A stretch of DNA of 64,000 bases, from NCBI RefSeq assembly GCF_022761115.1, contig NZ_JAKWJS010000001.1, positions 620,001 through 684,000 of the forward strand, written 5' to 3'. The notes under the pieces were generated by a model. It saw only the letters and a program-made list of their open reading frames with translations. It ran no database searches and was not told the DNA's origin. Position 1 is the stretch's first letter; each line of letters starts with the position of its first letter. Below are positions 33,438-52,807 of the stretch, piece after piece. The translations under genes and the position numbers were made by a program. The stretch is from Dyella sp. RRB7 (GTDB lineage Bacteria > Pseudomonadota > Gammaproteobacteria > Xanthomonadales > Rhodanobacteraceae).

Positions 33438-35279
33438 GTGGGTCTGTCGCTCACCCCCGAAATGATCCTGGTGCTCGGGCTGGTGGGCTTCACCATGCTG
33501 ATGCTGGTGCTGGAGTGGATCCGCGCCGACATGGTGGCGCTGCTGGTGGTGGTGGTGATCGGCCTCACCGGCCTGATTCCCTCCGATCGCGTGTTCAACG
33601 GCTTTGCCGGTAACGCGGTCATCGCGATCATCGCGATCATGATCATGGGCGCCGGGCTCGACCGCGCCGGCGTACTGACGCTTACCGCCAGCTTCGTGAT
33701 GCGCATGGCGCGTGGCGTGGAGTCGCGACTGGGCCTGGTCATCAACCTCGTCACCAGCCTGTTCAGCGCGGTCATTCCCAGCCAGGCTCTGGCCGCCTTG
33801 ATGATCCCGGTGACCAGCCGCCTCGCCGCGCGCACCGGCGTGCCGATCTCGCGGCTGCTGTTGCCGATGGCGTTCTGCATTCTCACCGCCACCAACACCA
33901 CGCTGATCGCCAACTCGCCGCTGATCGTGCTCAACGACCTGGTGGCCAGCGCCAACGCCAACCTGCCCGCCGGCGCGCACACCATTCCCAAGTTCGGCCT
34001 GTTCAGCGTGACCCCGGTGGGCCTGGTGCTGGCGCTGATGGGCGTGGGCTTCTTCTATTTCTTCGGCAAGAAGCTGTTGCCCGAGCGCGAGGACGAGCGC
34101 CTCAAGGTGACGCCGGGACGCACCGAGAGTTATTTCGCCGACACCTATGGCATCGCTGGCGAAACCGCCGAGCTCACGGTGACGGCGGAAAGCCCGCTGG
34201 TGGGCATGAGCATCGGCGAGGTGGAGCAGCTCTATGGGGCGCCGCTGATCCTCGCCATCAAGAGCGGCAACGACGCACGCATGGCGCCACCGGCCGACCA
34301 TGTGATCTGGGTGGGCTCCGTGCTGGGCGTGCTGGGCTCGCGCGAACAGCTCAACCAGTTCGCCAACAACCAGCTGTGCAAGCTGTCGCCGCGCATGCGC
34401 CAGCTGGGCGAGCTGTTCAACCCCACCCGCGCGGGTATTTCCGAAGCGGTGATTCCCCCGAGCTCGCGCTTCCTCAAGCAGACCGTGGGCGACCTGCGCC
34501 TGCGCAAGCGCTACGGCATTTCGGTGCTAGCAGTCACCCGTGGCGACCACGTGTACCGCGACGATGTACGTTCGGTGAGCCTGCGCGCCGGCGACACGCT
34601 GGTACTGCATTCGAGCTGGCGCGACCTGGCGCTGGCCAGCGAGGACAAGGACCTCGTCGTCGTCACCGACATCCCCAAGGAAGAGCAGCGCCCCGGCAAG
34701 ATCTGGCAGGCGGTGGGCTTCTTCCTGCTGGCCAAGTGCCTGGCCCTGTTCACCCATCTCGACCTTTCGGTCGCCATGATGACCGGCGCCGTCGGCATGC
34801 TGCTCACCGGCGTGCTGAACATGGACGAGGCGTACAAGGCGATCAACTGGAAGACCATCTTCGTCACCGCCTGCCTGATTCCGCTGGGCTGGTCGATGGA
34901 CGCCACCGGCGCCGCCGCGTGGCTGGCGCAGGAAGTGCTGCAGCACCTGGGCCATACCTCGCATTGGGTCCTGCAGCTGTCGCTGGCGATCCTCACGCTG
35001 CTGTTCTCGCAGGTCATGTCCAACGTCGGCGCCACCGTGATGATGGTGCCCATCGCCATCAGCGTCGCCGTCGCCACCGGCGGCAACCCATCCGCCTACG
35101 CGCTGATCGTCGCGGTATCGTCCTCCAACACCTTCCTGCTCAGCTCCGGCCATCCCGCCCTGATGATGGTGGCCGGCCCCGGCGGCTACCGCGGCAAGGA
35201 TTTCCTGCGCGTGGGCCTGCCGCTTACCGGGCTGGTGCTGGTGATTACGTTGGTGGCGATCAATTTGATGTACCACTGA
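33438..35279 (+). CDS. SLC13/DASS-type transporter with two TrkA-C domains
   Basis: A 613-residue inner-membrane protein of the divalent anion:sodium symporter superfamily (YfbS/SdcS-like). The N-terminal hydrophobic half (residues 1-210) contains the SNT-like motif ATNTTLIANSPL. Two cytosolic RCK-C/TrkA-C domains are inserted at about 230-400 (LVGMSIGEVEQLYGAPLILAI and LRLRKRYGISVLAVTRGD). A second hydrophobic half carries the pseudo-symmetric SSNTFLLSSGHP motif. Substrates in the family include sulfate and dicarboxylates; none can be assigned here. The start is GTG 33438 with AAGGGA nine bases before. A TATACT at 33338-33343 may be its -10 box. Confidence 0.88.
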   Translation: MGLSLTPEMILVLGLVGFTMLMLVLEWIRADMVALLVVVVIGLTGLIPSDRVFNGFAGNAVIAIIAIMIMGAGLDRAGVLTLTASFVMRMARGVESRLGLVINLVTSLFSAVIPSQALAALMIPVTSRLAARTGVPISRLLLPMAFCILTATNTTLIANSPLIVLNDLVASANANLPAGAHTIPKFGLFSVTPVGLVLALMGVGFFYFFGKKLLPEREDERLKVTPGRTESYFADTYGIAGETAELTVTAESPLVGMSIGEVEQLYGAPLILAIKSGNDARMAPPADHVIWVGSVLGVLGSREQLNQFANNQLCKLSPRMRQLGELFNPTRAGISEAVIPPSSRFLKQTVGDLRLRKRYGISVLAVTRGDHVYRDDVRSVSLRAGDTLVLHSSWRDLALASEDKDLVVVTDIPKEEQRPGKIWQAVGFFLLAKCLALFTHLDLSVAMMTGAVGMLLTGVLNMDEAYKAINWKTIFVTACLIPLGWSMDATGAAAWLAQEVLQHLGHTSHWVLQLSLAILTLLFSQVMSNVGATVMMVPIAISVAVATGGNPSAYALIVAVSSSNTFLLSSGHPALMMVAGPGGYRGKDFLRVGLPLTGLVLVITLVAINLMYH

Positions 35280-35301: not shown

Positions 35302-35928
35302 CTAGGGCTCGCCCCTCAGATCGCGTCTCGCGTAGATCGTGTGGTGAAGACTCATGAACTGAGCCATCGACCTCAGCCATCGCTCGGACGGAAAGCGGCC
35401 GCCGATGACCAGCAGAATCAAGACGACCATCGCCAGTACGGCGCCATAAGTACGCGCCGGAAACCGCCAGACTGGCCCCATATGACGTACGTAGGCCAGG
35501 GCCGCACACCCGCCAAAAGCCAGGCCCGACAGCACCTCGGCCATCGAGTGAACGCCCAGTTCGATCCTCGACCACGCGACCCATGCAGCCAGCCCCCAAC
35601 CAAGGGCGAATCCGGGCCACCGATGGGTCCGGGGGACCAACGCGCTGAACAAACAGGGCCAGATGGTGGCGGCCATGGTCGAATGGCCGCTCAGGCCAGT
35701 GAAGTCCCATGCCCTGATTCCGATGCCCCAGGCCATGTAGAGCAGCTTGCTACCCACCACGACAGCAACGATAGACAGTTGGAACAGCAGCCACGTCCCT
35801 GCAAGCCTGCGTGTTTCGGTCTTGGCGGCCAGCCATGCCGCCGTAATCAATACGCATGGCAGGAGGACCGCCAGATCACCCAGCGCGGTCAGGCGCTGCC
35901 AGATCGGAGATAGATCTCCCGTTGTCAC
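35302..35928 (-). CDS. PAP2-family phosphatase with variant motifs, last gene of the EPS operon
   Basis: A 208-residue protein with about six membrane helices. The PAP2 core is recognisable: FTGLSGHST in place of PSGH, and SRIELGVHSMAE in place of SR-x5-H-x3-D, with Glu where Asp is usual. The first motif is loose (KLLYMAWGIGIR instead of K-x6-RP). The catalytic His residues remain. Such variants are common in exopolysaccharide clusters of beta- and gammaproteobacteria. A role in undecaprenyl-diphosphate recycling is inferred. The ATG overlaps the stop of the upstream Wzy-like gene by four bases. Confidence 0.78.
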   Translation of the reverse strand: MTTGDLSPIWQRLTALGDLAVLLPCVLITAAWLAAKTETRRLAGTWLLFQLSIVAVVVGSKLLYMAWGIGIRAWDFTGLSGHSTMAATIWPCLFSALVPRTHRWPGFALGWGLAAWVAWSRIELGVHSMAEVLSGLAFGGCAALAYVRHMGPVWRFPARTYGAVLAMVVLILLVIGGRFPSERWLRSMAQFMSLHHTIYARRDLRGEP

Positions 35929-37052
35929 GCGGCCGATCCATTGGCGACAAGGGGCGAGGTCTTGCGTCGTCGCGTCGCGAGCCCATCGCCCCGGGGCACA
36001 TGGGAAAACCGGCAGAGCACCAGCAGCATGAACAGCAACAACCCCACCCGATGACGGAAATACGATCCATAGTCGGGCTCAAACAACGCCTGCACCAGCG
36101 TAAACGCCAGCACGGTGTGGCAGGAAAAACCCACCACGCCGGTAACGCCGGCCCTCAGATTCGCGATCAGCCTGATACTGAGCCATACCTGCAGGAACAC
36201 GAACGGAGCGTATGCGGGAGAGCGGGCGAGCAAATTGAGGGGAAACATCATGGTGACGAAAGCCAGCAATCGATTCCCCAAGAAACCGGCGACATGGCCA
36301 TCCGAAAGGTAATACTCGATACGACTCGCGGACACGCCCTCCAAGTAATCGGCTCGTCCCTTATTGAGCAGCTCCCAAGGCAGCCGCTTGAACAACAGCA
36401 AGACCAACAGCAAGGCGCAGCCATACACGAGGATGCCCACCCAGGCGCGACGCAACGCCATCAGGTTCACGCTGAGGACGACGGCGAACAGCAAGTAATA
36501 GGCGCGAAAATAGACACCCAGGAAGACCATGGAAGCCACATAGCAGGCAAGACCCAGCCATCCCCTGCCCGGTCGCCTGGCCCAGATAGCCAGTGGCAGC
36601 ACCGAGGCCAGGAAGGTGATGAGTTCTTTGGTGACGCAGAAATAGAACGGGGCCAGCAATACCGTGGCCGCCACCAGGGAAAAAACGTTGATCCAGCCAA
36701 GCACCGGCGCATAGGTAACGATGAACCAGACCAGGACCAGGAGAAAGCTCAGCCCGAAAACGGCGTTTGTTATGAGTAAGCCGTCCTCGTACTTCGAGCC
36801 ATAAGAAGACACCTGTCCCCCGAGCGCGTCGGCCAGCGCGATCCATGGACGCAACAAAAAGGCGGATGAATTGAACGAACTGCCGAACGCATCAAAACTT
36901 GGTTGACTGCGGATGATGGTCAGTCCGTCGACATAGAACTTCTCGTGCCAAAGCAGCGGCACTATCGCGGAAAAAGCCAGGGAAAGCAGGACTGCCACGA
37001 ACGCCACGAGGAAGGTGGTTATCAGGCGATCGCTGGCGGTCAGTTGTCCCAT
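35925..37052 (-). CDS. Polytopic membrane protein, candidate EPS polymerase (Wzy-like)
   Basis: A 375-residue protein with about ten hydrophobic segments and no strong similarity that I can name. It has the topology expected of a Wzy-type polymerase: many helices and a larger soluble loop around residues 230-270 (GRADYLEGVSASRIEYYLSDGH). Position in the operon, after flippase and glycosyltransferase genes and before the PAP2 gene, fits. No other polymerase candidate is present in the cluster. ATG 37052 is used instead of TTG 37061, which overlaps the glycosyltransferase stop. Function is inferred from topology and context. Confidence 0.6.
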   Translation of the reverse strand: MGQLTASDRLITTFLVAFVAVLLSLAFSAIVPLLWHEKFYVDGLTIIRSQPSFDAFGSSFNSSAFLLRPWIALADALGGQVSSYGSKYEDGLLITNAVFGLSFLLVLVWFIVTYAPVLGWINVFSLVAATVLLAPFYFCVTKELITFLASVLPLAIWARRPGRGWLGLACYVASMVFLGVYFRAYYLLFAVVLSVNLMALRRAWVGILVYGCALLLVLLLFKRLPWELLNKGRADYLEGVSASRIEYYLSDGHVAGFLGNRLLAFVTMMFPLNLLARSPAYAPFVFLQVWLSIRLIANLRAGVTGVVGFSCHTVLAFTLVQALFEPDYGSYFRHRVGLLLFMLLVLCRFSHVPRGDGLATRRRKTSPLVANGSAA

Positions 37053-37057
37053 CGACG

Positions 37058-38200
37058 TCAATCCCGCAGCAAGCGGCCATGTTGCCGCCCCGGCACAAGC
37101 GTTTCGAAGAGTTCGCGATAGGCCAGGTACAGGCGATCGATATGGAACCGCGTTTCGAAGGTGGCACGCGCATTGCCTCGCATGCGAACGAGTTCATCAA
37201 GACGCAATCGCTTCAGCGCACTGCAAAGCGCCTCCGCTTCACCGTCATACAGATAGCCATCATGGCCGTGTGAAACGATCTCGCCAAGCGCCCCCACTCG
37301 TCGCGCGAGCACGGGCGTGCCCGCGCGGAAGGCCTCTACTGCGCACAGGCCAAAGCCTTCCCACCGCGACGGCATCACCACCAGATCCGCCTCGGCATAG
37401 AGCGCGGTGATGGCCTCCCGCGCGAGCCACCCGTGACGCCTCACGTTGGACCAATCCGGAAAATCCGCCAGCCCGGCCTGCTCCACCACGCTCTCGCCCA
37501 CAAGATCGAACTCGATCCCGGGACATGGACCCAGTTCTCGAATGGCTTTCGCGAGCATGTCCACCCCTTTCTGCCGATCGAACCGCCCCACGTAGAGCAC
37601 CCTGATCGACCGCCGGCCGCTCGGCGGTTCCAGGCGAAATCGCCCCGTATCCTGCACCGCATTGGGTATCAGGATGCACCGAGGGGAATAGCCCATCCTC
37701 GATACCTGCCGATGTTCGTAGGACGAAATATTCACCACCGCGGATGGCAACTGCGACATCGCCCGCTCGATCATGGCCACTACGCGCCGCGACCTCTCCT
37801 TCATCTCCCGAAATACCGCCCAGCCATGGGGGCAATAAATGGTCTTTACGCCTGTTCCGAGAAACGGCGTGGCAAGACACAACGCGAAGCCGGCGAACGT
37901 GCTGTGCGCGAACACCACGTCGGCTCGTATCTCACGGCGCACGGCCACCATTCGCCTGGCAAGACCGAGGATGCCCCACAAGGATCTCCGGGCCGAATGA
38001 AGATGGAGATGCTCCGCCTCGAACTCCGCCTGCTGAGATGCGGGGATCAGATAAGAGAACCGGCAGCCCATGCGCCCGGCACCCGCATCCAACGAGGCCA
38101 GATAGGTCGCCACGCCGCCCTTGATGGTTTCCGCCACATGAAGGACGCGCAGCGGCGAAGCAGGCGCTTGCGCGATCGGTCGGCAACGATCTACCACCAC
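37058..38200 (-). CDS. GT4-family glycosyltransferase
   Basis: About 380 residues with a GT-B fold. The N-terminal acceptor domain starts LRVLHVAETIKGGVATYL. The C-terminal nucleotide-sugar domain contains VLYVGRFDRQKGVDML and the E-x7-E motif in PSRWEGFGLCAVEAFRAGTPV. It is the only ordinary sugar transferase in the biosynthetic arm besides the initiating enzyme, and should add one sugar to the lipid-linked primer. The sugar is unknown. The start is GTG 38200 with a weak ribosome site, so it is uncertain. Confidence 0.88.
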   Translation of the reverse strand: MVVDRCRPIAQAPASPLRVLHVAETIKGGVATYLASLDAGAGRMGCRFSYLIPASQQAEFEAEHLHLHSARRSLWGILGLARRMVAVRREIRADVVFAHSTFAGFALCLATPFLGTGVKTIYCPHGWAVFREMKERSRRVVAMIERAMSQLPSAVVNISSYEHRQVSRMGYSPRCILIPNAVQDTGRFRLEPPSGRRSIRVLYVGRFDRQKGVDMLAKAIRELGPCPGIEFDLVGESVVEQAGLADFPDWSNVRRHGWLAREAITALYAEADLVVMPSRWEGFGLCAVEAFRAGTPVLARRVGALGEIVSHGHDGYLYDGEAEALCSALKRLRLDELVRMRGNARATFETRFHIDRLYLAYRELFETLVPGRQHGRLLRD

Positions 38201-38282
38201 GACTCACCCATTGATGGAGCCGGAAGAAGGCGCGTGTGTGGCCAGGAGATGCCACGAACGGCAACCGCAACCGCGTCGATAG

Positions 38283-39524
38283 TCATCGTGCGGCTCCCAG
38301 CAAGGACACCAACCGGACAGCGGCTTCCCCGTCGAAAAAATCGTGATGCCGCTGCTTGAGCCGCCGCGTTCGATCACATCGCCGCTGATGGGACGACGCA
38401 TGGGTGGCGTCCTCGAGGATGGCCGCGATCACCTCCGGCCAGCCGCTGGACCAGTCGCCCTCCGTAAATCGTTCATAGGGTTCGTAGAGGCCCCTGCTAC
38501 TCGCGTAGTCGGCAAGATCCGCGGCCAGGAAGTAGATCGGTCGTTCCAGCAAGGCGTAGTCAATCGCGATGGCCGAATAATCGGTGACCAGGCCGTCGAA
38601 GGCATGCAGCAACGGGGTAATGTCGCCCGCCAGGCTCGACGGCAGGAACTTGATGCAGTCCGGCCATCGCTCGGCTCCCCCGCTGTCGAGTCCGTAGCCC
38701 CATGGGTGGGAGCGGATGACGACCCATGCGTCCAATCGATCGCAGGCGCGTGCAAGTTCAGCCAGCTCCACGCCACCTGGCGCGGCTGGATCGGGCTCGC
38801 CGTCACGCCAGGTCGGTGCGTACAGCAGCAAACGGCTGGGTGATCCCGGCTCGGCCCACAGCTCGCGCAGGCGTCGCCTCGCCAGACATCGCGTTCGTGA
38901 TAGATCCGGCACCTGCAGGCAGTCGCATCGGGGATCGCCGATCTTGAGGATCTTTCGGCGAGAGAGAGCAAAGGCACTTCGGAATCGGCTGGCGCACAGG
39001 TCGGACGGCACCACGTACCAGCTCGGCATACGAAAAGCAGCCTCGTATACCCTCCGCATGCACGCGCCTGCCAGGCGACCCAATAGGCCGCCGGAGACAC
39101 GATAAGTGGATGGCGAGTCGAGGCTTATGAGCTTTAGCGGCGTGCCGTGCCAAAGCTGGACGATCCTGGCCCCCGGCGCCGCGGGGCGGCAGACGTCACC
39201 AAGTCCATGCGTGATGATGATCGCCGATGCGCGGATCGTCACCAGCAATCCGCGCCACGAAGCACGCGGCACGCATGTCACGCCGGCGTCGCTGGCAAGC
39301 CTCATGTCATGGGCATCCTGGGCGAGCCACACAAGGCGAAGGTCAGGTCGCCGCGCCCGCGCCGTCTCCAGCACCCGCAGGGGCCCTTCGCCGAAACCCG
39401 CTCGCCGGCCGAACACCCATAGCTTGTTGTTGCGCGGCGCCACCCGGGCCAACAACCCCACCAGCGCGTAGGCCGGGAGCAAAGCGATCTTGATGGCGTT
39501 AGCCTTGACGAAGCTGAACTTCAT
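38283..39524 (-). CDS. CDP-glycerol:poly(glycerophosphate) glycerophosphotransferase family (TagB/TagF-like)
   Basis: About 413 residues. A membrane-binding N-terminus (AIKIALLPAYALVGLLARVAPRNNKLWVFG) is followed by the family core: QLWHGTPLKLI with the catalytic His, YAPTWRDG, a VIRSHPW segment and the second His/Asp region LVTDYSAIAIDYAL. These are the signature blocks of TagB/TagF, which transfer glycerol phosphate from CDP-glycerol. The family is best known from Gram-positive teichoic acids, with some examples in Gram-negative capsules. A TagD-type CDP-glycerol enzyme lies two genes upstream, which makes glycerol phosphate the likely donor. Start ATG 39524 overlaps the flippase end by 26 bases. 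Confidence 0.87.
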   Translation of the reverse strand: MKFSFVKANAIKIALLPAYALVGLLARVAPRNNKLWVFGRRAGFGEGPLRVLETARARRPDLRLVWLAQDAHDMRLASDAGVTCVPRASWRGLLVTIRASAIIITHGLGDVCRPAAPGARIVQLWHGTPLKLISLDSPSTYRVSGGLLGRLAGACMRRVYEAAFRMPSWYVVPSDLCASRFRSAFALSRRKILKIGDPRCDCLQVPDLSRTRCLARRRLRELWAEPGSPSRLLLYAPTWRDGEPDPAAPGGVELAELARACDRLDAWVVIRSHPWGYGLDSGGAERWPDCIKFLPSSLAGDITPLLHAFDGLVTDYSAIAIDYALLERPIYFLAADLADYASSRGLYEPYERFTEGDWSSGWPEVIAAILEDATHASSHQRRCDRTRRLKQRHHDFFDGEAAVRLVSLLGAAR

Positions 39525-40767
39525 GACTCGACCTCGTCATTGCAGCAAACCGATGGACAAAACCCAGCACGACGATCAACTGGGTAATCGCCACGCCGAT
39601 GACAGCACGCGATGCTCCCGCGCGGCTCAACACCACCATCAAGGTGACACCGACCGGACATAGCGCGAAAAAGTAGACCTTGAAGAGCCCGAAGGACTCA
39701 CCCATGGCGCGGATCGACGTCCGGTAAACCACGGCAACGCCCCAAAGCGCGGGAAGCACCGAGGCCAGTTGCAAGGCCAAGGCGAATTCGCCGAAGCCCG
39801 GCCCGTAGACAAAGGAAAGCACCTTGGCGCTCATGGGCACCATGATCAATGCGAACAACGCGGTACCACCCAGGACCACCAGAGCGAGGCGATGAGTGAA
39901 AACCAGCAAATCGTGACGTCCGCCAACCCGGAACGTATCCGCCAGCAAGGGCAACAAGGCTGCAGAGGCTCCGACCAATAGCGTATTGATGGGGGCCAGC
40001 AGGTTGAGCACGGCCCGCAACCCCGCCGTCTGCCGCAGATCGCTGCCAGCGGGCATCATGAGGTAGTAGCCGTTGTTTGCAAACCAGATAAGCGCGGCAG
40101 CCGGAACCGACCACTTCGCGTACCGCCATGCCGCCTTGCCAAATGCGTTCAGTTCGCCACGCGATAATCCTTGGATCCGAAGCTCGGGAAGCAGAAATAG
40201 CAGGCACAACGAAGCACCCAGCGCCATTCCGGAAAACGGCGACGCCATCTGGCCGCTGTAGTGGTAGTCGGCAAAGGTGGTGAACAGCATCGATGCCGCA
40301 TACACCAGGGTGACCGAGACCGACTTTCCAGCACTGGCGTTGCAGTAGAAGTAGATCTTGCCCGACCAAAGGCACATGCTCGAGCCGAGCGCCAGCATGA
40401 ACGGCATTGAGCTGACGACATCGCCATAGCTTCCCCAAAAGCGCAAGGACTGCGACAACACGATCATGAGGATCGCCATCGCCAACGTCGGAACCAACAG
40501 GAATCCGAAACCGGCCTTCCGTTCGCCCGAGCGAGCAGCATCGTCCACGCTGTAGATCTCGCCAAGGATCGCACCATGGAGCATGTTGGCGAGCACCACG
40601 AGAGTGTAGGCAAAGGCAAAGCCGCCAAGTGCCGCGATACCGCCGTACCTCGCGACCATCACGCCAAGCAGGAAATGGGCGGCGGCCATGATCGCCTGAT
40701 CGATGGCGCCCAACAGCGCACGAGAATGGATGGACATGTCTTGTCTTTGGATATCGGCTGAGGACAT
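39499..40767 (-). CDS. Wzx-like polysaccharide flippase
   Basis: About 422 residues with roughly twelve hydrophobic helices, in the style of MOP-superfamily O-antigen/EPS flippases. The N-terminal FLLGVMVARYGGIAALGGFAFAYTL pattern and the central SVPAAALIWFANNGYYLM segment fit. It should move the undecaprenyl-linked repeat unit across the inner membrane. Starts at ATG 40767 and 40737 are both possible; the first overlaps the tagD gap less well, and neither has a strong ribosome site. Its stop lies inside the TagB-like gene. Confidence 0.8.
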   Translation of the reverse strand: MSSADIQRQDMSIHSRALLGAIDQAIMAAAHFLLGVMVARYGGIAALGGFAFAYTLVVLANMLHGAILGEIYSVDDAARSGERKAGFGFLLVPTLAMAILMIVLSQSLRFWGSYGDVVSSMPFMLALGSSMCLWSGKIYFYCNASAGKSVSVTLVYAASMLFTTFADYHYSGQMASPFSGMALGASLCLLFLLPELRIQGLSRGELNAFGKAAWRYAKWSVPAAALIWFANNGYYLMMPAGSDLRQTAGLRAVLNLLAPINTLLVGASAALLPLLADTFRVGGRHDLLVFTHRLALVVLGGTALFALIMVPMSAKVLSFVYGPGFGEFALALQLASVLPALWGVAVVYRTSIRAMGESFGLFKVYFFALCPVGVTLMVVLSRAGASRAVIGVAITQLIVVLGFVHRFAAMTRSSHEVQLRQG

Positions 40768-40780
40768 GAAGCCCAAGGCC

Positions 40781-41242
40781 TCAGTCGAAGCGCTCAACAA
40801 TCGAACCGATAAGGTCCAGCGCTTTCTTCAGGTCAGCCACATGCGACCGGTCGAGAATCTTCAACATGCGCTTCAGGTCCGTACTCGATACACCTTCCGT
40901 CCGCGGCAGGTAAACGACCTCGCAATCCTCGCTCAAGTGATCGAACTTGCCCGTCCAGTCATCGCCCATGCCGAAGATGGAGACACCGTGCGTGTGGATA
41001 TCCTCGACTTTCTGATCCCACGACGACTCGGGGATAGCGAGGTCAACGCAACCCACGTTCTGAAGAATCTCGATCCGCTCGGGAAAGCCGATGATGGTCT
41101 GCTTGCCCTTGCTTCGGTTGAACTCATCCGTTGAGACGCCAACGATCAGGCGGTCACCCAGGCCACGCAGGCGCTTCAGAAGGCGCAAATGGCCCACGTG
41201 AAACAGATCGAACGTGCCGTAGGTTAGAACTACTTTTGTCAT
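40781..41242 (-). CDS. tagD: Glycerol-3-phosphate cytidylyltransferase (TagD type)
   Basis: A 153-residue nucleotidyltransferase. TYGTFDLFHVGHLRLL holds the HxGH motif, and GVSTDEFN, the R of PERIEIL, MGDDWTGKFD and RTEGVSSTDLK follow. These match TagD closely, down to the WxGKFD block that sets it apart from HldE/RfaE and FAD-synthase relatives. It makes CDP-glycerol from CTP and sn-glycerol 3-phosphate. With the TagB/TagF-like enzyme downstream it forms a make-and-transfer pair. ATG 41242 is used; the upstream extension of the frame is not family-like. Confidence 0.9.
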   Translation of the reverse strand: MTKVVLTYGTFDLFHVGHLRLLKRLRGLGDRLIVGVSTDEFNRSKGKQTIIGFPERIEILQNVGCVDLAIPESSWDQKVEDIHTHGVSIFGMGDDWTGKFDHLSEDCEVVYLPRTEGVSSTDLKRMLKILDRSHVADLKKALDLIGSIVERFD

Positions 41243-41274: not shown

Positions 41275-42711
41275 TCAGTACGCGTTCGTTCGCTTCAACA
41301 AGACGAATGGCGTAAACAGGATGATTTTCAAATCCAGCCAGAGCGACCATTCCCTGATGTACGAGATGTCGCATTCCACACGTTGCGCCATCTTTTCGAG
41401 CGTGTCGGTTTCGCCTCGAAACCCTCTGATCTGTGCCAGGCCGGTCATCCCAGGCTTTACTCCGTGGCGCTGCATATACCCCCGCAGGCACTCGCTGAAA
41501 TGATGGTTGTGCTCGACGGCGTGCGGCCTTGGCCCAACGATTGACATATTTCCCTTGAGCACATTGATGAGCTGGGGAAGTTCGTCGAGGCTGGTCGCCC
41601 GGAGGAAGCGGCCAAAGCGGGTAACACGTGAATCACCCCGCGTTGCCTGCGTCACCGCGCCGGCCTGCTCGGCATGCACCCGCATGGACCTGAATTTCCA
41701 TACGTCGAACTCCTTGCCGCCCAGTCCATGGCGCTTTTGCCGGTAGATCACAGGGCCGGGCGAGCTCCACTTCACTCCGATGGCAATCGCGACCATCACC
41801 GGACCGAGCAGAAGCAAAAGCATCAGAGCAACCAGTCGATCCTCCAGCGCCTTCACCAGCCCGGCGTGCCCATCGACCCGGCTGCCCCGCAACGTGATGA
41901 CGGGAACGCCGGCAAGCAGTGCGGCGTGATGATTGATCATTTCGTAGCCAAAGAAGTCCGGCACCAGGCGGACGATGGTCGGCTTGTCCAGGGTCATCTG
42001 AAGCACGCGCTGGATCATCGTCTCCGCGCGCAGCGGCAGCGCGATCCAAACCTGATCCAGCGACCACGACTCGCAACCTTCGCCCAGGCTGTCAAAGTCG
42101 CCCAGGCACGGCGCGCCCTGGATGTCCTGATGGTCATACGGCGTGCGCAGATAGCCCACCACCGTCAAACCCATCCAGGGATTTTTCCGGGCCGCGGTCA
42201 CGATGCGTTGACCTGCCTGGGTGGCGCCCACAAGAAGCACGCGCCGCGCATCGATGCCGCGCGTGCGAAAACGTCCCAACGCCCAGCGCATGACAAGGCG
42301 ATCGATGGACAACACGACTCCGGTGACAACGAACCAGACGGCGGCGCCCTGCCGCGAATACTCGCCCGTCGTTCTGGACGCCCACTCCAAGGCAAGCAAT
42401 AGCAGCATGACAGCCAACCAAGCGGCCCACAGCCGGGCGATTTCGGCCCACGGCCTTTCGCCGCGCCAGCTGCGATACAGGCCTATCGCGGGAAAAACCA
42501 GCAAGGTGAGGAGCACGGTCCGGACCAAGCCGGCCGGATAGGGATCTCGCAAACCATAGTCGCCGGCCTGCAGCCAATGGGTAACGAAGGCCACGGCCAC
42601 GATAACAAGGACATCGCTGAGTCGAAGCGCGACATCAAGCAAGGCGCCATGCTTGGACAGAAAGTGCGAGTCAACCCGCCGCTGACGGGAAAGAGATGAC
42701 ATGGTCAACAT
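41275..42711 (-). CDS. Undecaprenyl-phosphate sugar phosphotransferase (WcaJ/GumD type)
   Basis: About 478 residues of the polyprenyl glycosylphosphotransferase family. Four N-terminal helices and a Rossmann-like CoA-binding-type domain (VLLVGATQAGQRIV) are followed by one helix and the catalytic C-terminal domain with SSPGPVIYRQKRHG, KFRSMRVHAE, RATSLDELPQLINVLKGNMSIVGPRPH and GMTGLAQIRGFRG. It starts the repeat unit by putting a sugar phosphate, most often glucose-1-phosphate, on the lipid carrier. ATG 42711 has GAGG at eight bases. Confidence 0.93.
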   Translation of the reverse strand: MLTMSSLSRQRRVDSHFLSKHGALLDVALRLSDVLVIVAVAFVTHWLQAGDYGLRDPYPAGLVRTVLLTLLVFPAIGLYRSWRGERPWAEIARLWAAWLAVMLLLLALEWASRTTGEYSRQGAAVWFVVTGVVLSIDRLVMRWALGRFRTRGIDARRVLLVGATQAGQRIVTAARKNPWMGLTVVGYLRTPYDHQDIQGAPCLGDFDSLGEGCESWSLDQVWIALPLRAETMIQRVLQMTLDKPTIVRLVPDFFGYEMINHHAALLAGVPVITLRGSRVDGHAGLVKALEDRLVALMLLLLLGPVMVAIAIGVKWSSPGPVIYRQKRHGLGGKEFDVWKFRSMRVHAEQAGAVTQATRGDSRVTRFGRFLRATSLDELPQLINVLKGNMSIVGPRPHAVEHNHHFSECLRGYMQRHGVKPGMTGLAQIRGFRGETDTLEKMAQRVECDISYIREWSLWLDLKIILFTPFVLLKRTNAY

Positions 42712-42836
42712 ACGATTTACCTCATCCTTGACCGTTGTGCCGGCAATCCGCCAGGTCATATGCAGGGAGCGTCGATAGCCGCCTACCAGGACGCCGATGT
42801 CCCATTACGACCTTTATCGATGCCTTGACCGTCGCG

Positions 42837-45038
42837 TCAGGCGGTGCGGCTCCCGTATTCGTAGTAGCCGTAGGAGTAATAGCCGGCATTGCGGCGCTCC
42901 ACGGCATTGAACACGGCGCCCTTGATCTTCACGCCGTTCTGCTCGAAGCGCTGTTTGGCGAGCGCGATCTCGCGCAGCTGATTCATGCCAAAGCGCACCA
43001 CCATCAGACTTGTGCCGACGTGATGTCCAAGAATCGCCGCGTCGGTTACCGCCAGGATGGGCGGGGTATCGATGATGACGAGGTCGTAGTTCGACCGCAG
43101 GCGATCCAGCAACATCGGGAAGCTGTCGTGCATCAGCAGCTCGGATGGATTCGGCGGTACCTTTCCGCGCGGTATGAAATGAAGATTCTCGACCTGGGGA
43201 ACGGCGCGAATGGCGTCATCCATCGACAGCTGACCGGATATCAACTCCGACAAACCGCCCTCGGGTCGCCCACCGATGACGGTGTGCAAGGCGCCCTTTC
43301 GCATATCGCCGTCGACGAGCAATACACGCTGCCCGCTTCCGGCGATAACCGCCGCCAGATTGGACGAGACGAAGGTCTTGCCCGCGCCCGGGCTGGCGCC
43401 GGAAATCATGAGGATATTGGTCTTGGCCTCCATTCGCGCGAAATGGAGACTGGTGCGCAAGCTGCGCAGCGCCTCGACGGCGAGATCCGCCGGCGCGTTC
43501 ACCGCGAGCAGCTGCTGGCTTTCGTCATTGCGTCCACGGCGCCCTTGCAGGAAGCTCTTCTGCTCTGTGAGGCTGTTTGGAATGGAGGCGTAGACCGGCA
43601 GGCCAAGCTCTTCGAGCATGGCTGGATCCTCCAGCCCCCGGCGCAGCATTTGCCGCAGGAAGACGAAGCCGAGCGCGAACAGTGCACCGAGCCATGTGCT
43701 ACCCAAGATGACCAATAGCCTTTTTGGCTTGGCCGGCATCGACGTATCCACGGCGGCGGCGTCGATCACGCGGACATTGCCCACGGTGCCGGCACGCGCT
43801 ATGTCCAGCTGCTGCGCCTGATTGAGGAGGTTGACGTAGGTGGCGTTGCTGACCTCGACGTCACGGGTAAGACGAAGCAGCTCCTGCTGCGTGTCCGGCA
43901 AGTCACCCACTTGCTTGTCTATGCCGCTGCGCTGGGCCTGAAGCTCGCCGATCTGGTTGAGCAATGCCTTGTACGCCGGATGCTCAACCGTATAACGGCG
44001 CTCCATATCCGCCTGCTGCAGGCGCAACTGCTGGATGCTTGTCTCAATGGCCACGACCTGATCGAGCAGCCCCTTGGTCTGCATGGTGATGTCGACCGAA
44101 TGCGCCTTGGTCTGGAAGGCGTTCAGCGCACCCTGCGCGCCATCCAGCTCTTTGCGTACCTTGGGCAACTGTTCCTTGACGAAGGCAAGGCTGTTGGCCG
44201 CTTCCGCGGAATTGCGGTCGACGTTTTGCCGAACATAGGCTCCACTGACCTGATCGAGGACCCGAGTCGCCAGCTCGGCGTCCCGGTGGTCGTAGGTGAG
44301 CTGGATGATGCCCGAATCCTTGCCCTGTTCCGCCGCGTTGATGTCGCGCTGCAGCTCGCTGATGACCGCAAGTGCACTGCGATGGACCACGCGGAATCGC
44401 GTGCCCGGATTGGCCCTTAAAGCACGCACCTGCAGGGTCACGCCATTGCCGGCGACCGCTTCACCCACCGCCCCCGCCAGCAGGCGATTGCTGCCGTCGT
44501 ACAAGGTGAATGCGCCATGTTCGCCGGCTACGAGCGTCAGCGGCTCCCCCTCCAGCGAGGCGGGCACGCTCATCCTATAGATGTCCAGGCGCGAGCCGCC
44601 CCAGTCGTACCGGCCCAATCCCAGCACCGGCGTCGCCACGTCGGTGGGCTCGTCGGGCGTGAAGCGACGCGCTGCAAAACCTCCGAACAGGGGAAAGCGC
44701 AACGGCTCCACTTCGACCTGCAAATTCAGCTCATCCACCGCCTTGCCGATGACAGCGCGCGAGGTGATCAGCGCAATCTCCGTCGTCGCCTCGGAGCTGG
44801 AAGCGCCAAGGGTTTGCGAGATGGCGCTCAGGCCAGGCAGATTGGGGACTTTCTGCTCTACCTGGACGACAGCGTCAGCGCGATAGACCGGCGTTGCCAG
44901 CACGGCGTAGCCGACCCCGAGCACAAAGCACACGCCGGTGACGATACCGATCAACCAGCGGTGGTCGACCAAGGTACCAAGCAGCTCCCGCAGGTCGATT
45001 TCCTTGTCCTGTGGCGCGTTGTCTTTTGTAGCGGTCAT
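42837..45038 (-). CDS. wzc: Polysaccharide co-polymerase and tyrosine autokinase (Wzc/Etk type)
   Basis: A 733-residue inner-membrane protein. The N-terminal helix (WLIGIVTGVCFVLGVGYAVLA) and Wzz domain lead to a long periplasmic coiled-coil region (residues about 270-400), then a second helix (LLVILGSTWLGALFALGFVFL). The cytoplasmic BY-kinase domain has Walker A SGASPGAGKT, A' LVDGDMRKG and Walker B LVIIDTPP. It ends in a Tyr-rich tail (YYSYGYYEYG) for autophosphorylation. It controls polymer length and export together with Wza; its phosphatase is encoded just upstream. Confidence 0.94.
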   Translation of the reverse strand: MTATKDNAPQDKEIDLRELLGTLVDHRWLIGIVTGVCFVLGVGYAVLATPVYRADAVVQVEQKVPNLPGLSAISQTLGASSSEATTEIALITSRAVIGKAVDELNLQVEVEPLRFPLFGGFAARRFTPDEPTDVATPVLGLGRYDWGGSRLDIYRMSVPASLEGEPLTLVAGEHGAFTLYDGSNRLLAGAVGEAVAGNGVTLQVRALRANPGTRFRVVHRSALAVISELQRDINAAEQGKDSGIIQLTYDHRDAELATRVLDQVSGAYVRQNVDRNSAEAANSLAFVKEQLPKVRKELDGAQGALNAFQTKAHSVDITMQTKGLLDQVVAIETSIQQLRLQQADMERRYTVEHPAYKALLNQIGELQAQRSGIDKQVGDLPDTQQELLRLTRDVEVSNATYVNLLNQAQQLDIARAGTVGNVRVIDAAAVDTSMPAKPKRLLVILGSTWLGALFALGFVFLRQMLRRGLEDPAMLEELGLPVYASIPNSLTEQKSFLQGRRGRNDESQQLLAVNAPADLAVEALRSLRTSLHFARMEAKTNILMISGASPGAGKTFVSSNLAAVIAGSGQRVLLVDGDMRKGALHTVIGGRPEGGLSELISGQLSMDDAIRAVPQVENLHFIPRGKVPPNPSELLMHDSFPMLLDRLRSNYDLVIIDTPPILAVTDAAILGHHVGTSLMVVRFGMNQLREIALAKQRFEQNGVKIKGAVFNAVERRNAGYYSYGYYEYGSRTA

Positions 45039-45139: not shown

Positions 45140-45589
45140 TCAGGAAGCGGAACGCGTTAAGTAGGGCAACCAGCTGGCTACGCTTCGATCGATCACGCCA
45201 TAAACATGCTCGAACGCTTCCCGGCTTTGCCCAAAGGGATCAGCGATATCCGCGCCAGCCCCCCAGTGATCGAGCAACATCACCTTGCCGCTGGCCTCCG
45301 GCGCCAGCCGCCTGACGCAGGCGACGTGATCGTGTTCCATCGCCAACACCAGATCGGCTTCACGGAGCATGGCACCGCTCAGTTGGCGCGCCCGATGCGC
45401 ACCGCCATCGATGCCATGCTCGGCGAGCAGCGTTCGCGCCATGGCATCCATCGGTTTGCCCACGAGCGCACCCAGGCCCGCGCTGTGAACGCAAATACCG
45501 CGACTGGCCAGGTGATGATGAAACAGATACTCCGCCGTCGGACTGCGGCAAATGTTTCCAATGCAGACGGTCAAAATCCTTTTGAACAC
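45140..45589 (-). CDS. wzb: Low-molecular-weight protein tyrosine phosphatase (Wzb/Etp type)
   Basis: About 149 residues, the usual size. The P-loop CIGNICRS has catalytic Cys9 and Arg15, and the general-acid Asp lies in DIADPFG. It dephosphorylates the Tyr tail of the autokinase encoded 101 bases downstream, so that polymer assembly can cycle. The frame extends to ATG 45643, but GTG 45589 gives the canonical N-terminus FKRILTVCIGNICRS and has GGAG four bases upstream. Confidence 0.9.
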   Translation of the reverse strand: MFKRILTVCIGNICRSPTAEYLFHHHLASRGICVHSAGLGALVGKPMDAMARTLLAEHGIDGGAHRARQLSGAMLREADLVLAMEHDHVACVRRLAPEASGKVMLLDHWGAGADIADPFGQSREAFEHVYGVIDRSVASWLPYLTRSAS

Positions 45590-45618
45590 GGCGCTCCATG
45601 TTTTTTCGCCATAGAAAC

Positions 45619-45638
45619 TCGCCAAGGCGCGCTGGCGA
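45619..45638. promoter_or_regulatory. Inverted repeat in the divergent EPS promoter region
   Basis: TCGCCA and TGGCGA flank an eight-base spacer, about 30 bases upstream of the phosphatase GTG. It may be an operator or a leader hairpin. Its location upstream of the start agrees with the shorter phosphatase. Confidence 0.35.
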
Positions 45639-45654
45639 TCCATCCAAACGATAT

Positions 45655-45665: not shown

Positions 45666-45761
45666 ATGGATCAGGAAAATCCGGTCTGCGCACTTATCCC
45701 GTTTTTCTGTCGTCCTTCGCCGCGCCAGCGATTTGACGCGTCGCAATTCGCCTCGCCAGCC

Positions 45762-45767
45762 TACAAT
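45762..45767 (+). promoter_or_regulatory. Possible -10 box of the plus-strand EPS export arm
   Basis: TACAAT lies about 113 bases before the GfcA-like start. TTGACG at 45733-45738 is 23 bases upstream, too far for a standard sigma-70 promoter unless an activator helps. The call is weak. Confidence 0.3.
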
Positions 45768-45879
45768 CGCCCGATCAACGAGTCGCCGACGGCGCAGCGC
45801 CTAGCCGCGAACCCCGCCTTCTCAACGCCAGGCAACGCAGCGTCGCGACACGGACGAATTCTCATTGAATGGAGCTCAT

Positions 45880-46179
45880 ATGAAGAAGTTGCTCGCCGCA
45901 ATCATGATGACGGGCCTGGCTGGATCGGCCCTCGCCCAATCCTCCACCATGACGGATGCCAACGCCCCGAAGGCCGCTGGCTCCACCGCCGCCGCCGAGG
46001 CCTCCATGGGCAGCCTGACCCCGCTCTACATTGGCGCAAGCCTGGTCGGCGCGGCGGTCATCAGCGCGGGCGTGTCCGGTGGCGGCAGCAACCATGGCAA
46101 CTCGAACACGTCCCCGGGCACGGGTGGTGGCGGCAACGGCGGTACCGGTGGCACCACCGGCACCACCGGCACGCACTGA
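45880..46179 (+). CDS. GfcA/YjbE-like small secreted protein
   Basis: A 99-residue protein with a signal peptide (MKKLLAAIMMTGLAGSALA). A short Ala/Ser-rich stretch, one hydrophobic segment (LTPLYIGASLVGAAVISAGVS) and a Gly/Thr/Asn-rich tail of alternating GG and TG units follow. The composition and size resemble E. coli YjbE/GfcA, the first gene of the yjbEFGH and gfc operons. GGAG lies six bases upstream of the ATG. It heads the export arm, and a terminator-like hairpin follows it. Sequence alone is too simple for a firm homology claim. Confidence 0.65.
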   Translation: MKKLLAAIMMTGLAGSALAQSSTMTDANAPKAAGSTAAAEASMGSLTPLYIGASLVGAAVISAGVSGGGSNHGNSNTSPGTGGGGNGGTGGTTGTTGTH

Positions 46180-46203
46180 GTTTCTCCCAACGCGTTTGCC
46201 TGA

Positions 46204-46237
46204 TCCGTGCTGGATTTATCCGGCACGGACGGTTTTT
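46204..46237 (+). terminator. Terminator or attenuator between the GfcA-like gene and wza
   Basis: TCCGTGC (46204-46210) and GCACGGA (46223-46229) pair, with further GGA/TCC pairing inside, and CGG plus five T residues follow. It lies 24 bases after the GfcA-like stop and 26 bases before wza. It would cut most transcripts after the first small gene. Confidence 0.75.
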
Positions 46238-46262
46238 GCCCGAAGCACACAAAGCCCATCTC

Positions 46263-47363
46263 ATGAATGTACGCCAGACCCTAGCCCTGGTCGCGGCGAT
46301 CTCGCTGCTGCAAGGCTGCATCTGGTCGCCAGGTCAACACATGTCGACCAGCCGCCTGCTGCATGAAGAAGACCAAGGCAGCCGCGTCGAGCTCGTTCCC
46401 ATCACGCCCAAGCTGATCGCCATGGACAAGGCAGCGGCTACAACCGCGGCGATCCCGCCGGAGCTACTCTCCTACCGGCCCGAGTCTTACCGCATTGGCG
46501 CGGGCGACACGCTGTACATCACCGTCTGGGAACACCCCGAGCTGACCTCCCCCGCCGGGCCGCAACAGCAGTCGCTGGCCAACGGTCGCCTCGTGCGCCC
46601 GGACGGCACGCTGTTCTATCCCTACGTGGGCGAGCTGAAAGTATCCAGCATGACCGTGGAAGACCTGCGCAAGGCCATCAGCGACAAGCTGGCCCGTTAC
46701 GTGGAGTCGCCCCAGGTCGATGTGAACGTGATCGGTTACGGCAGCCAGCGCATCACCGTGCAGGGCGCCTTCACCAAGACCGATCCACAGCCCGTCACCA
46801 CGACGCCGGTGACGCTGGCCCAAGCACTTGGTGCCGCCACCATCAACACGGAACAGGCCAATCTCTCCGGCCTGGTGCTGACCCGCGACGGCCGTGACTA
46901 CCCGATCGATCTCGATGCCCTGAGCAACGGCGCGGCCATGGCGAAGGACATCTACCTGAAGCCTCGGGACCGCCTGTACCTGCCGTACAACGACCGCCAG
47001 GAAGCCTATGTGGTGGGTGAGGTGAATCGTCCGCTCGCACTCAGCTTCAAGACCACCGACATCACCCTTTCCCAGGCGCTCGGCCGCGCCGGCGGCCTGA
47101 ACCAGACCACCTCCAAGGGCAAGGCCGTCTATGTGATACGTGGCATCGCGGATCTCGAAAAGAGCAAGGGCACCGTGTATCGGCTGGATGCGCGTTCGCC
47201 CGATGCCTTCATCCTCGCAGGGCAATTCAAGGTGAAGCCTGGCGACGTGGTTTTCGTGGGCCCGGCAGGCGTGACACGCTGGAACCGCTTCCTGTCCCAG
47301 TTGCTGCCGCTGACCAGCATCATCAGCAACGCAGCGAGTGCCCAGTACAACTTCGACCGCTGA
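46263..47363 (+). CDS. wza: Outer-membrane polysaccharide export lipoprotein Wza
   Basis: About 366 residues. The signal peptide ends in lipobox LLQGC with the lipidated Cys at position 19. The poly_export domain follows (YRIGAGDTLYITVWEHPEL, VRPDGTLFYPYVGELKVSSMTVEDL), then SLBB domains (ITVQGAFTKTDPQPVTTTPVTLAQAL, AYVVGEVNRPLALSF). It forms the octameric outer-membrane channel that works with the Wzc co-polymerase encoded on the other arm. The frame is open far upstream, but ATG 46263 precedes the signal peptide directly. Confidence 0.94.
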   Translation: MNVRQTLALVAAISLLQGCIWSPGQHMSTSRLLHEEDQGSRVELVPITPKLIAMDKAAATTAAIPPELLSYRPESYRIGAGDTLYITVWEHPELTSPAGPQQQSLANGRLVRPDGTLFYPYVGELKVSSMTVEDLRKAISDKLARYVESPQVDVNVIGYGSQRITVQGAFTKTDPQPVTTTPVTLAQALGAATINTEQANLSGLVLTRDGRDYPIDLDALSNGAAMAKDIYLKPRDRLYLPYNDRQEAYVVGEVNRPLALSFKTTDITLSQALGRAGGLNQTTSKGKAVYVIRGIADLEKSKGTVYRLDARSPDAFILAGQFKVKPGDVVFVGPAGVTRWNRFLSQLLPLTSIISNAASAQYNFDR

Positions 47364-47406
47364 TGAGCCCGTACAAGCTTTTTCCGTTTCGGGTCCTGCC
47401 GATGGC

Positions 47407-48090
47407 ATGCCGCGCATGAATCGCCTGCATGCACGAATCGCCGGCGCCATGGTCGGTTGTGCGCTGTTGGGCATCGCCGGCTGTACCGAGGTGTCGCGTG
47501 GCAGCCTCGAATCCGTACGCCTGTTATGGCGTGGAAAGCCGACGCTGGCTCCCACGGCGGAACAAGTGGCCGCCAGGCCCTTTTACCAAATGCGCGCCAC
47601 CACGGCGGCTGGCGATGCCGTGCTGATCCTTGGCAACGTCGATGGGCCACGCGAATTCTGGTACGGCACCCAGGGCGTGCTGGTGGTTCTACAGCATGGC
47701 CGCGTCGTCATGACGGCGGGACTCGATCGCAATCTCGACGGCAACCGGCTGTCGTCTCCAGGTGACCCCTTCGCGACCGGCCTGCACCGGCTCGGCACGC
47801 GTCTCGCCTATGAACGTGTCGACGACTGGTCGCCCGGTTACCGCTATGGCGTTCCCGTACATGCCGTGCTGAGGCCGACAGGCAGCGCCGAGATCGACAT
47901 TCTTGGAGCGAGTCGCCACACGTTGCTGATAACCGAGGAAATAACAGCCACAAGTGCCGGCTACCACGTCACCAATCGCTACTGGGTGGACCCGTCGGAT
48001 GGCTTCGTGTGGATGAGCGAGCAGCACGTCATGCCGGGTTTGACGATGAAGCTCGTGCAATTGCGCCCCTATCGCGGGGGAGCGTCGTGA
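47407..48090 (+). CDS. gfcB: GfcB/YjbF-family capsule lipoprotein
   Basis: About 227 residues with a lipoprotein signal (AGAMVGCALLGIAGC, lipidated Cys at about 26). The mature part is a beta-rich domain with conserved Trp/Tyr/Arg segments (YQMRATTAAGDAVLILGNVDGPREFWYG, SPGYRYGVP, NRYWVDPSDGFVWMSEQHVMPG), as in YjbF/GfcB proteins. These belong to group-4-capsule-like operons and sit in the outer membrane; the biochemical role is unknown. Starts at ATG 47407 and 47416 are both possible. Confidence 0.82.
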   Translation: MPRMNRLHARIAGAMVGCALLGIAGCTEVSRGSLESVRLLWRGKPTLAPTAEQVAARPFYQMRATTAAGDAVLILGNVDGPREFWYGTQGVLVVLQHGRVVMTAGLDRNLDGNRLSSPGDPFATGLHRLGTRLAYERVDDWSPGYRYGVPVHAVLRPTGSAEIDILGASRHTLLITEEITATSAGYHVTNRYWVDPSDGFVWMSEQHVMPGLTMKLVQLRPYRGGAS

Positions 48091-48875
48091 GGCATCTGCT
48101 CCTGCTCGCTGCCGGCGCCTTGCTGCCATCGCTTGTGTTGTGGCCGCCCGCCGCAGCGGCCACGCAGTTTTTCGCGAGCGGCGCGGTGGAACATGCCGGC
48201 GTGCATGAGCTTGCTCGACCTGCCCGGTTGAGCGACGCGGCGCTCGCCGCTGGCGTGCGGGAGGATGCCTACGTACTGGGCGCCGCCTGGCTGCGCCCGG
48301 GCCTGCGCATGGAGCAGCAACGGCAGCAGGCCGGCATCCTGTTCGACCTGGACCACGTGCGGCGGCAGGCGCTGGCGTCCGATCGCATCGCACTGGCCGA
48401 ATTTTGCGCATCGCTGAGCGCGTGGTTGGGGTCCATGCCAAGTACAGGGCGACAGGCGGCTCCGCTCGATCCTCGCGTGGTCGATGTCATGCCATCGGCG
48501 AACCGTCCGGTAGCGCAGGGCGACGTCCTGTATTACCCGACACGCCCCAGCACCATCCGTATCGTCGGTGCGGTATCGCGCACCTGCGAACTGCCGCAGG
48601 TGGCGCTGCAGGATGCCCGTCGCTACCTCGATGCCTGCCCCGCCCTGCCGCTGGCCGACGCCGACTGGATCTTCGTCATCCAGCCGGACGGGCAAGTCTT
48701 TCGGCAGGGTATCGGCCTGTGGAACCGCAGCACGCCCTTGCCGCTGGCACCGGGCGCCGTGGTCTACGTGCCGCTGGGCGACCGGCTCGTGCGTGACGTG
48801 GCCCCGGACCTGAATCGCGAAATCGCCACCTTCCTGGCAACGCAGCCGCTCGCCGATCCGGAAGCGCACCCATGA
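48087..48875 (+). CDS. gfcC: GfcC/YjbG-family capsule protein
   Basis: About 262 residues with a signal peptide (HLLLLAAGALLPSLVLWPPAAAA) and the periplasmic GfcC fold: a ubiquitin-like domain pair (TFFASGAVEHAG-like start, RPSTIRIVGAVSR) with an amphipathic C-terminal helix (LNREIATFLATQP). The last 55 residues contain GAVVYVPLGDRL, similar to SLBB modules. GTG 48087 overlaps the gfcB stop (GTGA) and has GGGGGAG upstream, deciding the start. It is probably a periplasmic partner of Wza and GfcD. Confidence 0.83.
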   Translation: MRHLLLLAAGALLPSLVLWPPAAAATQFFASGAVEHAGVHELARPARLSDAALAAGVREDAYVLGAAWLRPGLRMEQQRQQAGILFDLDHVRRQALASDRIALAEFCASLSAWLGSMPSTGRQAAPLDPRVVDVMPSANRPVAQGDVLYYPTRPSTIRIVGAVSRTCELPQVALQDARRYLDACPALPLADADWIFVIQPDGQVFRQGIGLWNRSTPLPLAPGAVVYVPLGDRLVRDVAPDLNREIATFLATQPLADPEAHP

Positions 48876-52691: not shown

Positions 52692-52807
52692 GCGCATGGC
52701 GACTTGAGCGCGCCTCAACACTGCCTTGCACAAGCCTCGCTTCTGCCTGCGGCACGGCCGGATTATCGTCAGGCTGTCTGTAAACTATGCCGAGCATCCG
52801 CCCCGCG

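Follow-up and report, generated by a model that had tools for sequence, protein, structure and literature searches.

Capsules and O-antigens of Gram-negative bacteria whose loci carry TagD- and TagF-type genes have been published, as described in the parts of three papers on which we draw (PMC5974469, PMC8262930, PMC4869667). Here we analyze a locus of this sort in Dyella sp. RRB7 (Gammaproteobacteria, Rhodanobacteraceae), within a stretch of 64,000 nucleotides (contig NZ_JAKWJS010000001.1, positions 620,001 to 684,000), hereafter the window, in whose coordinates all its positions are given. The two genes in question encode a TagD-type cytidylyltransferase and a PF04464 phosphotransferase of TagF/TarF type, called the transferase below. 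An earlier note on this DNA had described TagD/TagB chemistry as best known from Gram-positive wall teichoic acid. The enzyme families are indeed those of wall teichoic acid synthesis (TagD/TagB/TagF, TarD/TarF), but the framing is dated, because Gram-negative capsules and O-antigens based on cytidine diphosphate (CDP)-glycerol are on record. Moreover, unlike wall teichoic acid genes, the window locus has a Wza/Wzc export shell, and its Pfam-identified genes include no ATP-binding cassette (ABC) transporter and hence no TagGH-type exporter; an ABC-2 pair adjoins the Glaciihabitans relative.

The described system closest in layout is an ~18 kilobase (kb) lipopolysaccharide/exopolysaccharide cluster of Piscirickettsia salmonis (KW89_2959-2973), as listed in Table 3 of its description (PMC8972169). 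Like the window, it has wza, wzz (tyrosine autokinase), wcaJ, wzx, wzy, GT4 genes and a PF04464-type gene, and it shares the order TagD-wzx-PF04464. It differs in having more glycosyltransferases and sugar-nucleotide genes, and its transferase is just 27% identical to that of the window. The TagD assignment is ours: in P. salmonis LF-89 (locus L087), reading frames of 334, 138 (135 from a GTG at 7722), 462, 390 and 284 amino acids fit the lengths of KW89_2969-2965 of strain PM15972, and the second (L087:7713-8129), which fits the 135-residue "hypothetical" KW89_2968, is TagD-like (TIGR01518, E 1e-36, 125.8 bits, under the cut-off). Since this TagD-like frame adjoins wzx and the PF04464 gene, the published cluster probably makes CDP-glycerol. 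The O-antigen cluster of Hafnia alvei PCM1220 also has tagD, a putative glycerol phosphate transferase (whcT) and glycerol in its O-unit; it makes an O-antigen with more sugars, and the likeness comes from the published description rather than from a gene comparison (PMC4869667). In group 2 capsules, Cps3D and Cps7D share with the window a TagF-type domain with the same catalytic histidines (PMC5974469), and Cps3B/Cps7B, like the window TagD, are dedicated CDP-glycerol synthases within the capsule locus (PMC8262930). As far as these sources go, Cps3D and Cps7D are polymerases of several domains, a glycosyltransferase among them, whereas the window encodes a single-domain transferase, a separate GT4 enzyme and Wzx/Wzy candidates. 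Among the matches listed in our literature search on Dyella exopolysaccharide clusters, or on Stenotrophomonas or Xanthomonadales with CDP-glycerol, none dealt with such a locus, judging by titles and the start of abstracts.

We propose, with a probability of roughly 0.78, that the five genes at 35925-41242 are the exchangeable center of a Wzx/Wzy-type surface-polysaccharide locus, which would make glycerol phosphate donor and attach it to the polymer. That CDP-glycerol is produced for this polymer is the interpretation we favor, because the linked pair of genes recurs in other families and another class, because the transferase has a TagF-type fold with its histidines, and because the pair sits in the variable center of a polysaccharide locus. 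The five genes are:

40781-41242, minus strand: TagD-type CTP (cytidine triphosphate):glycerol-3-phosphate cytidylyltransferase, 153 amino acids, ATG at 41242 (TIGR01518, PDB 1coz, catalytic residues)
39499-40767, minus strand, start at 40767 or 40737: candidate Wzx-like flippase, multi-pass, with nine non-overlapping hydrophobic 19-mers (MatE match in a counterpart)
38283-39524, minus strand: TagF/TarF-type (PF04464) phosphotransferase, a single GT-B domain of 413 amino acids (PF04464, structure model, TagF match)
37058-38200, minus strand: GT4-family glycosyltransferase (PF13692, 6.7e-27), the sole ordinary glycosyltransferase found in the cassette
35925-37061, minus strand: candidate Wzy-like polymerase, multi-pass (conserved in four loci)

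The stretch singled out by the earlier note, 38283-41242, is bounded exactly by the PF04464 gene's stop (38283) and the tagD ATG (41242). The HxGH and WxGKFD blocks that it had read in the TagD-type protein are present as HVGH and WTGKFD. This protein scores 152.9 bits (E 4e-45) against NCBIfam TIGR01518, and a PDB sequence search matched it to the Bacillus subtilis TagD structure 1coz over residues 2-125 (E 8e-43). In 1coz numbering it retains HxGH, Asp11, Asp38, Lys44, Lys46, Asp66, Trp74, Asp94, Arg113, Thr114 and Ser118, and its RTxGxST-type block (RT..SS) reads RTEGVSST; the roles of HxGH, the lysines and Arg113 follow the part of PMC8262930 that treats TagD residues. CTP and sn-glycerol 3-phosphate are its probable substrates, with CDP-glycerol as the product.

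The LWHGTP and TDYSA blocks of the transferase were likewise confirmed, and PF04464 covers residues 32-408 of 413 with 153 bits, against a gathering cut-off of 22.1. The structure prediction that the earlier note had suggested for this protein was built from a 40-row alignment and gave a mean predicted local distance difference test score (pLDDT) of 94.1 and a predicted template modeling score (pTM) of 0.92. Its top Foldseek match was TagF (E 5e-24), and superposition on TagF (VIA) gave Z 35.8 with a root mean square deviation of 3.0 over 363 aligned residues, TagF crystals soaked with CDP-glycerol being among the best matches. TarL (Z 32.3), Cps3D (31.0) and Bcs3 (30.3) came after TagF, followed at Z below 20 by uridine diphosphate N-acetylglucosamine (UDP-GlcNAc) 2-epimerases. 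The transferase profile also matches TagF, TarL and Cps3D, and the profile alignment places His126 and His273 on TagF His444 and His584, the residues named as catalytic in the consulted part of PMC5974469. His126, His273, Asp315 and Ser317 are invariant in 40/40 aligned rows. By its model, the transferase thus has the structure of a TagF-type enzyme and retains both catalytic histidines. One other PF04464 match in this genome (C1:1191418, E 2.1e-5) is partial and weak, of a kind common in relatives, and was dropped as a second enzyme.

The two genes occur together. In a sample of 148 related genomes, the window's own included, strong matches (E<1e-40) to TagD were found in three genomes (next best 4.5e-11) and strong matches to PF04464 in the identical three (next best 3.6e-18): that of the window, G088, and Stenotrophomonas SY1 (G099), with the genes 1.4-1.6 kb apart in each. 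Weaker matches, which fall outside this count, make up 77 of the 80 genomes with PF04464 (none better than 3.6e-18) and six of the nine with TIGR01518 (4.5e-11 or weaker). The co-occurrence figure is 1.9e-6 for the 148 genomes, with the strength cut set after the scores were known; the pairing is not due to chance. In G088, of the same order (Lysobacterales), the cluster is of another kind (L042, G088:C37): TagD stands with two PF04464 domains in frames of more than 1000 amino acids, near a frame judged by eye to be flagellin-like (L042:395-1219), perhaps in a flagellin glycosylation island. In Stenotrophomonas SY1, of the same order and another family, 12 of the 13 window locus genes have counterparts at 29-61% identity; only that of the PAP2 gene is absent.

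We then scanned contigs of GTDB species with a two-row profile and kept the best 80 of 154 loci; as the scan pattern was seeded with window and Stenotrophomonas peptides, the resulting set of loci and tree rows is biased. The order TagD-Wzx-TagB/F-GT4-Wzy was found in three of these best 80: Stenotrophomonas SY1, S. humi and Ralstonia sp. ASV6. The S. humi GT4 counterpart (L080:11206-12327; 26.5% identity, E 2e-23) was found when searched alone. The export shell of this species (L080:13442-15691) is poor, with GfcC at E 0.002; YjbH is just a 40-residue match and GfcB lies in two pieces, which may reflect either a damaged shell or an assembly error. In Ralstonia, the place held by PAP2 in the window, after the Wzy candidate, is taken by a GH5-like glycoside hydrolase (L048:13457-14467; PF00150, 1.2e-6), which may cut the polymer. 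TagD lay inside the fetched flank in 16 of the best 80 loci. A plasmid search with the transferase returned 34 records, all below 60% identity and at 24-31% among the matches listed.

The transferase tree (40 rows: the window, L041 of Stenotrophomonas SY1 and 38 of the 80 kept loci) grouped the window with Ralstonia (support 96/93). All actinobacterial rows but Kribbella (17 of 18) fell into one set with the four cassette sequences (100/99). The four cassette transferases lie on the same side of one branch, with weak support (77/22), and we dropped the claim of a single origin. The TagD tree had 25 rows, after exclusion of duplicates, the weak cytidylyltransferase matches L035-L040 and the distant L097. 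There, two Piscirickettsiaceae rows and one further row joined the Ralstonia TagD in a group (99/99) that excludes both the window and Stenotrophomonas. This Ralstonia protein (L048:8304-8738) has Leu for Trp at position 74, like the Piscirickettsia rows. Because the Ralstonia TagD and transferase thus group with different partners, the TagD slot was probably refilled while its neighbors stayed, and two TagD lineages in the same slot would therefore point to a need for CDP-glycerol at that place. Base composition, considered as a sign of transfer, was equivocal: the transferase has the G+C content of the window (65%), and tagD (56%) and the Wzy candidate (58%) are lower.

Around the five genes lie those of the export shell and, further out, two genes outside the polymer pathway that bound the site:

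33438-35279, plus strand: CitMHS-type transporter (PF03600), left boundary
35302-35928, minus strand: PAP2-family phosphatase (PF01569, 3.3e-8), part of the shell and outside the cassette
41275-42759, minus strand: WcaJ-type undecaprenyl-phosphate glucose phosphotransferase (TIGR03023, 510.9 bits, above the cut-off of 410.75)
42837-45038, minus strand: Wzc tyrosine autokinase/chain-length protein (PF23607, PF13807, PF02706, PF13614)
45140-45643, minus strand: Wzb low-molecular-weight tyrosine phosphatase (PF01451, 4.6e-35)
45666-47363, plus strand: Wza-type outer-membrane export protein (PF02563, 5.2e-24; PF22461, 1.3e-28)
47338-48090, plus strand: GfcB/YjbF lipoprotein (PF11102, 4.3e-30)
48009-48875, plus strand: GfcC (PF06251, 1.8e-12)
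48872-51013, plus strand: YjbH/GfcD-like outer-membrane protein (PF06082, 7.1e-246)
52787-53761, plus strand: right boundary gene (conserved in congeners)

From 45643 downward, the minus-strand order is Wzb, Wzc, WcaJ, TagD, Wzx-like, transferase, GT4, Wzy-like and PAP2, with neighbors overlapping by a few bases or separated by gaps within ~100 bases; Wza, GfcB, GfcC and YjbH follow on the plus strand from 45666. The initiating WcaJ, Wzc, Wzb and Wza, all present, mark this as a Wzx/Wzy-dependent type of exopolysaccharide or capsule locus.

The site proved variable when we compared 20 genomes of the genus, the window's included. The left boundary gene is 95-97% identical in all 19 congeners, and the best match of the right one is 81-86% identical, again in 19/19. 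Between them lie only ~2-5 kb in 10 of the 20 genomes; nine carry Wzc (the window's included), in one congener with an in-frame stop, and one (G007) keeps pieces of Wzc and Wza with PAP2. Ten congener stretches were compared with the window (L134-L143: the eight other Wzc-bearing sites, the remnant and one of the ten near-empty sites). At the eight Wzc-bearing sites, Wzc is 71-77% identical to that of the window, WcaJ 60-69% identical in 7/8, and more or less distant GT4 matches are present in seven; PAP2 counterparts (40-45%) stand at five of the nine sites with a locus or remnant. The window TagD, transferase, Wzx and Wzy candidates have no match at E 1e-3 in any of the ten stretches, and TIGR01518 finds nothing in all 19 congeners. 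The site is therefore a variable polysaccharide locus, either near-empty or with a conserved export shell round different centers. This is the layout expected of a capsule-type switching locus, and the five genes accordingly look like a swapped center of the capsule-type cassette kind. Gene pairing, linkage, synteny, the TagF-type fold and the locus context all lend support to the proposal, made in the earlier note, that CDP-glycerol is produced here for the polysaccharide.

Several observations weigh against this reading. The TagD score lies under the TIGR01518 equivalog cut-off (152.9 versus 165.4 bits), for which reason we write "TagD-type" and claim no certified equivalog; that cut-off was reached by none of the five proteobacterial TagD proteins scored, the window's among them, and by nothing in the 148 related genomes. 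The RYVDEVI motif, described as part of the dimer interface in the section of PMC8262930 that we used, is replaced by GCVDLAI, with Gly-Cys for Arg-Tyr at residues 63-64 (window 41048-41053). Gly63 occurs only in the window among 18 full-length rows, the 17 others having Arg or Lys; the alignment has 21 rows, four of them partial; of these, one stops before residue 63 and the three that reach it, all distant, carry Ser, Gln and Ala. PMC5974469 also describes TagF-like domains able to transfer hexose phosphate. No TagD was found in the fetched flanks (at most 10 kb per side, often less) of 42 actinobacterial loci with transferase relatives; when ten such genomes were searched whole, none was found in two. 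In favor of the reading, the other eight have a TagD-like gene elsewhere, above the TIGR01518 cut-off in five. Finally, neither candidate membrane protein reaches a family threshold, although both are conserved, multi-pass and at the expected positions. The Wzx candidate has no Pfam match of its own and the Wzy candidate none in Pfam or NCBIfam, and profile searches of PDB sequences were empty to E 10 for both. The earlier note was right in placing TagD and the transferase either side of this Wzx candidate; that it is a flippase is likely, as it is multi-pass and, among its three counterparts, that of Stenotrophomonas SY1 (L041) has a sub-threshold MatE match (4.3e-5, 23.7 bits versus a cut-off of 24.9). 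The structure model of the Wzy candidate, from four sequences, reached a pLDDT of just 52, which is insufficient for a structure search.

In the pathway that we envisage, WcaJ would put hexose phosphate onto undecaprenyl phosphate and the GT4 enzyme would add a second sugar. TagD would convert CTP and sn-glycerol 3-phosphate into CDP-glycerol, from which the transferase, acting in the cytoplasm, would move glycerol phosphate onto the lipid-linked sugar. Flipping of the repeat unit would then fall to the MATE-like protein and its polymerization to the Wzy candidate, with Wzc/Wzb, Wza and GfcBC/YjbH serving length control and export. As the locus encodes just WcaJ, one glycosyltransferase and one phosphotransferase, each repeat probably consists of two sugars and a single glycerol phosphate. 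Glycerol phosphate side groups are found on the Wzy-made capsules of pneumococcus. Given this precedent, a single-domain enzyme and TarF as its best NCBIfam model, we slightly favor a side group over a backbone link.

The strongest competitor, somewhat short of an even chance, places glycerol phosphate in the backbone: the transferase would add it to the first sugar and the GT4 enzyme would glycosylate the glycerol (or Wzy would join units through it), giving a poly(glycosylglycerol phosphate) that resembles a teichoic acid and is exported via Wza. The very few transferases encoded by the cassette would suit such a chain, as would a fold shared with TagF, TarL and Cps3D, all backbone polymerases, and such polymers exist in Gram-negative capsules (PMC5974469, PMC8262930). 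Against it, the enzyme comprises just one GT-B domain (413 residues), with no GT-A or GT-B domain fused to it as in group 2 capsule polymerases, and TarF is a non-polymerase; the NCBIfam equivalog cut-offs are unmet throughout (TarF 81.8/550, TarB 36.2/500, TarL 62/1000 bits). A bolder version is more doubtful still: a minimal mobile cassette would turn a colanic/group-4-type export machine to making a teichoic-acid-like poly(glycosylglycerol phosphate) whose chain contains two sugars and glycerol phosphate; the transferase would have come from wall teichoic acid genes of actinobacteria, and the cassette would have moved as a block between Gamma- and Betaproteobacteria.

We regard it as improbable that the transferase moves hexose phosphate or ribitol phosphate, TagD serving another product or being degenerate. 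The hexose phosphate activity of TagF-like domains, the altered dimer motif and the actinobacterial relatives without an adjoining TagD would fit, but TagD co-occurs with the transferase in a conserved slot and keeps HxGH, Lys44, Lys46, Trp74, Arg113 and the RT..SS block, the best structural match is TagF, CDP-glycerol soaks included, and no second nucleotidyltransferase stands among the Pfam-identified locus genes. Least probable of all is a silent, decaying cassette, with TagD inactivated by loss of Arg-Tyr and the rest to follow as in the congeners with a broken Wzc or a mere remnant, for despite the unique Gly63 the window locus genes have uninterrupted reading frames, several of which overlap at their ends, and the remaining TagD catalytic residues checked are intact.

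An exchangeable center that makes and transfers glycerol phosphate remains our preferred reading. The cassette is a neat but fairly ordinary example, as its likely chemistry is already known from Gram-negative coats; its interest lies in the small enzyme set, the whole center swapped in and the probably refilled TagD slot. It adds one more Lysobacterales genome with probable CDP-glycerol surface chemistry, in the form of a complete swappable cassette, and with so few enzymes the repeat unit should be easy to work out and the two key enzymes easy to test. The comparison further suggests that KW89_2968, annotated as "hypothetical" in the published Piscirickettsia cluster, is a CDP-glycerol synthase. 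For the cell, a phosphate group would render the coat acidic and might affect metal binding and phage sensitivity.

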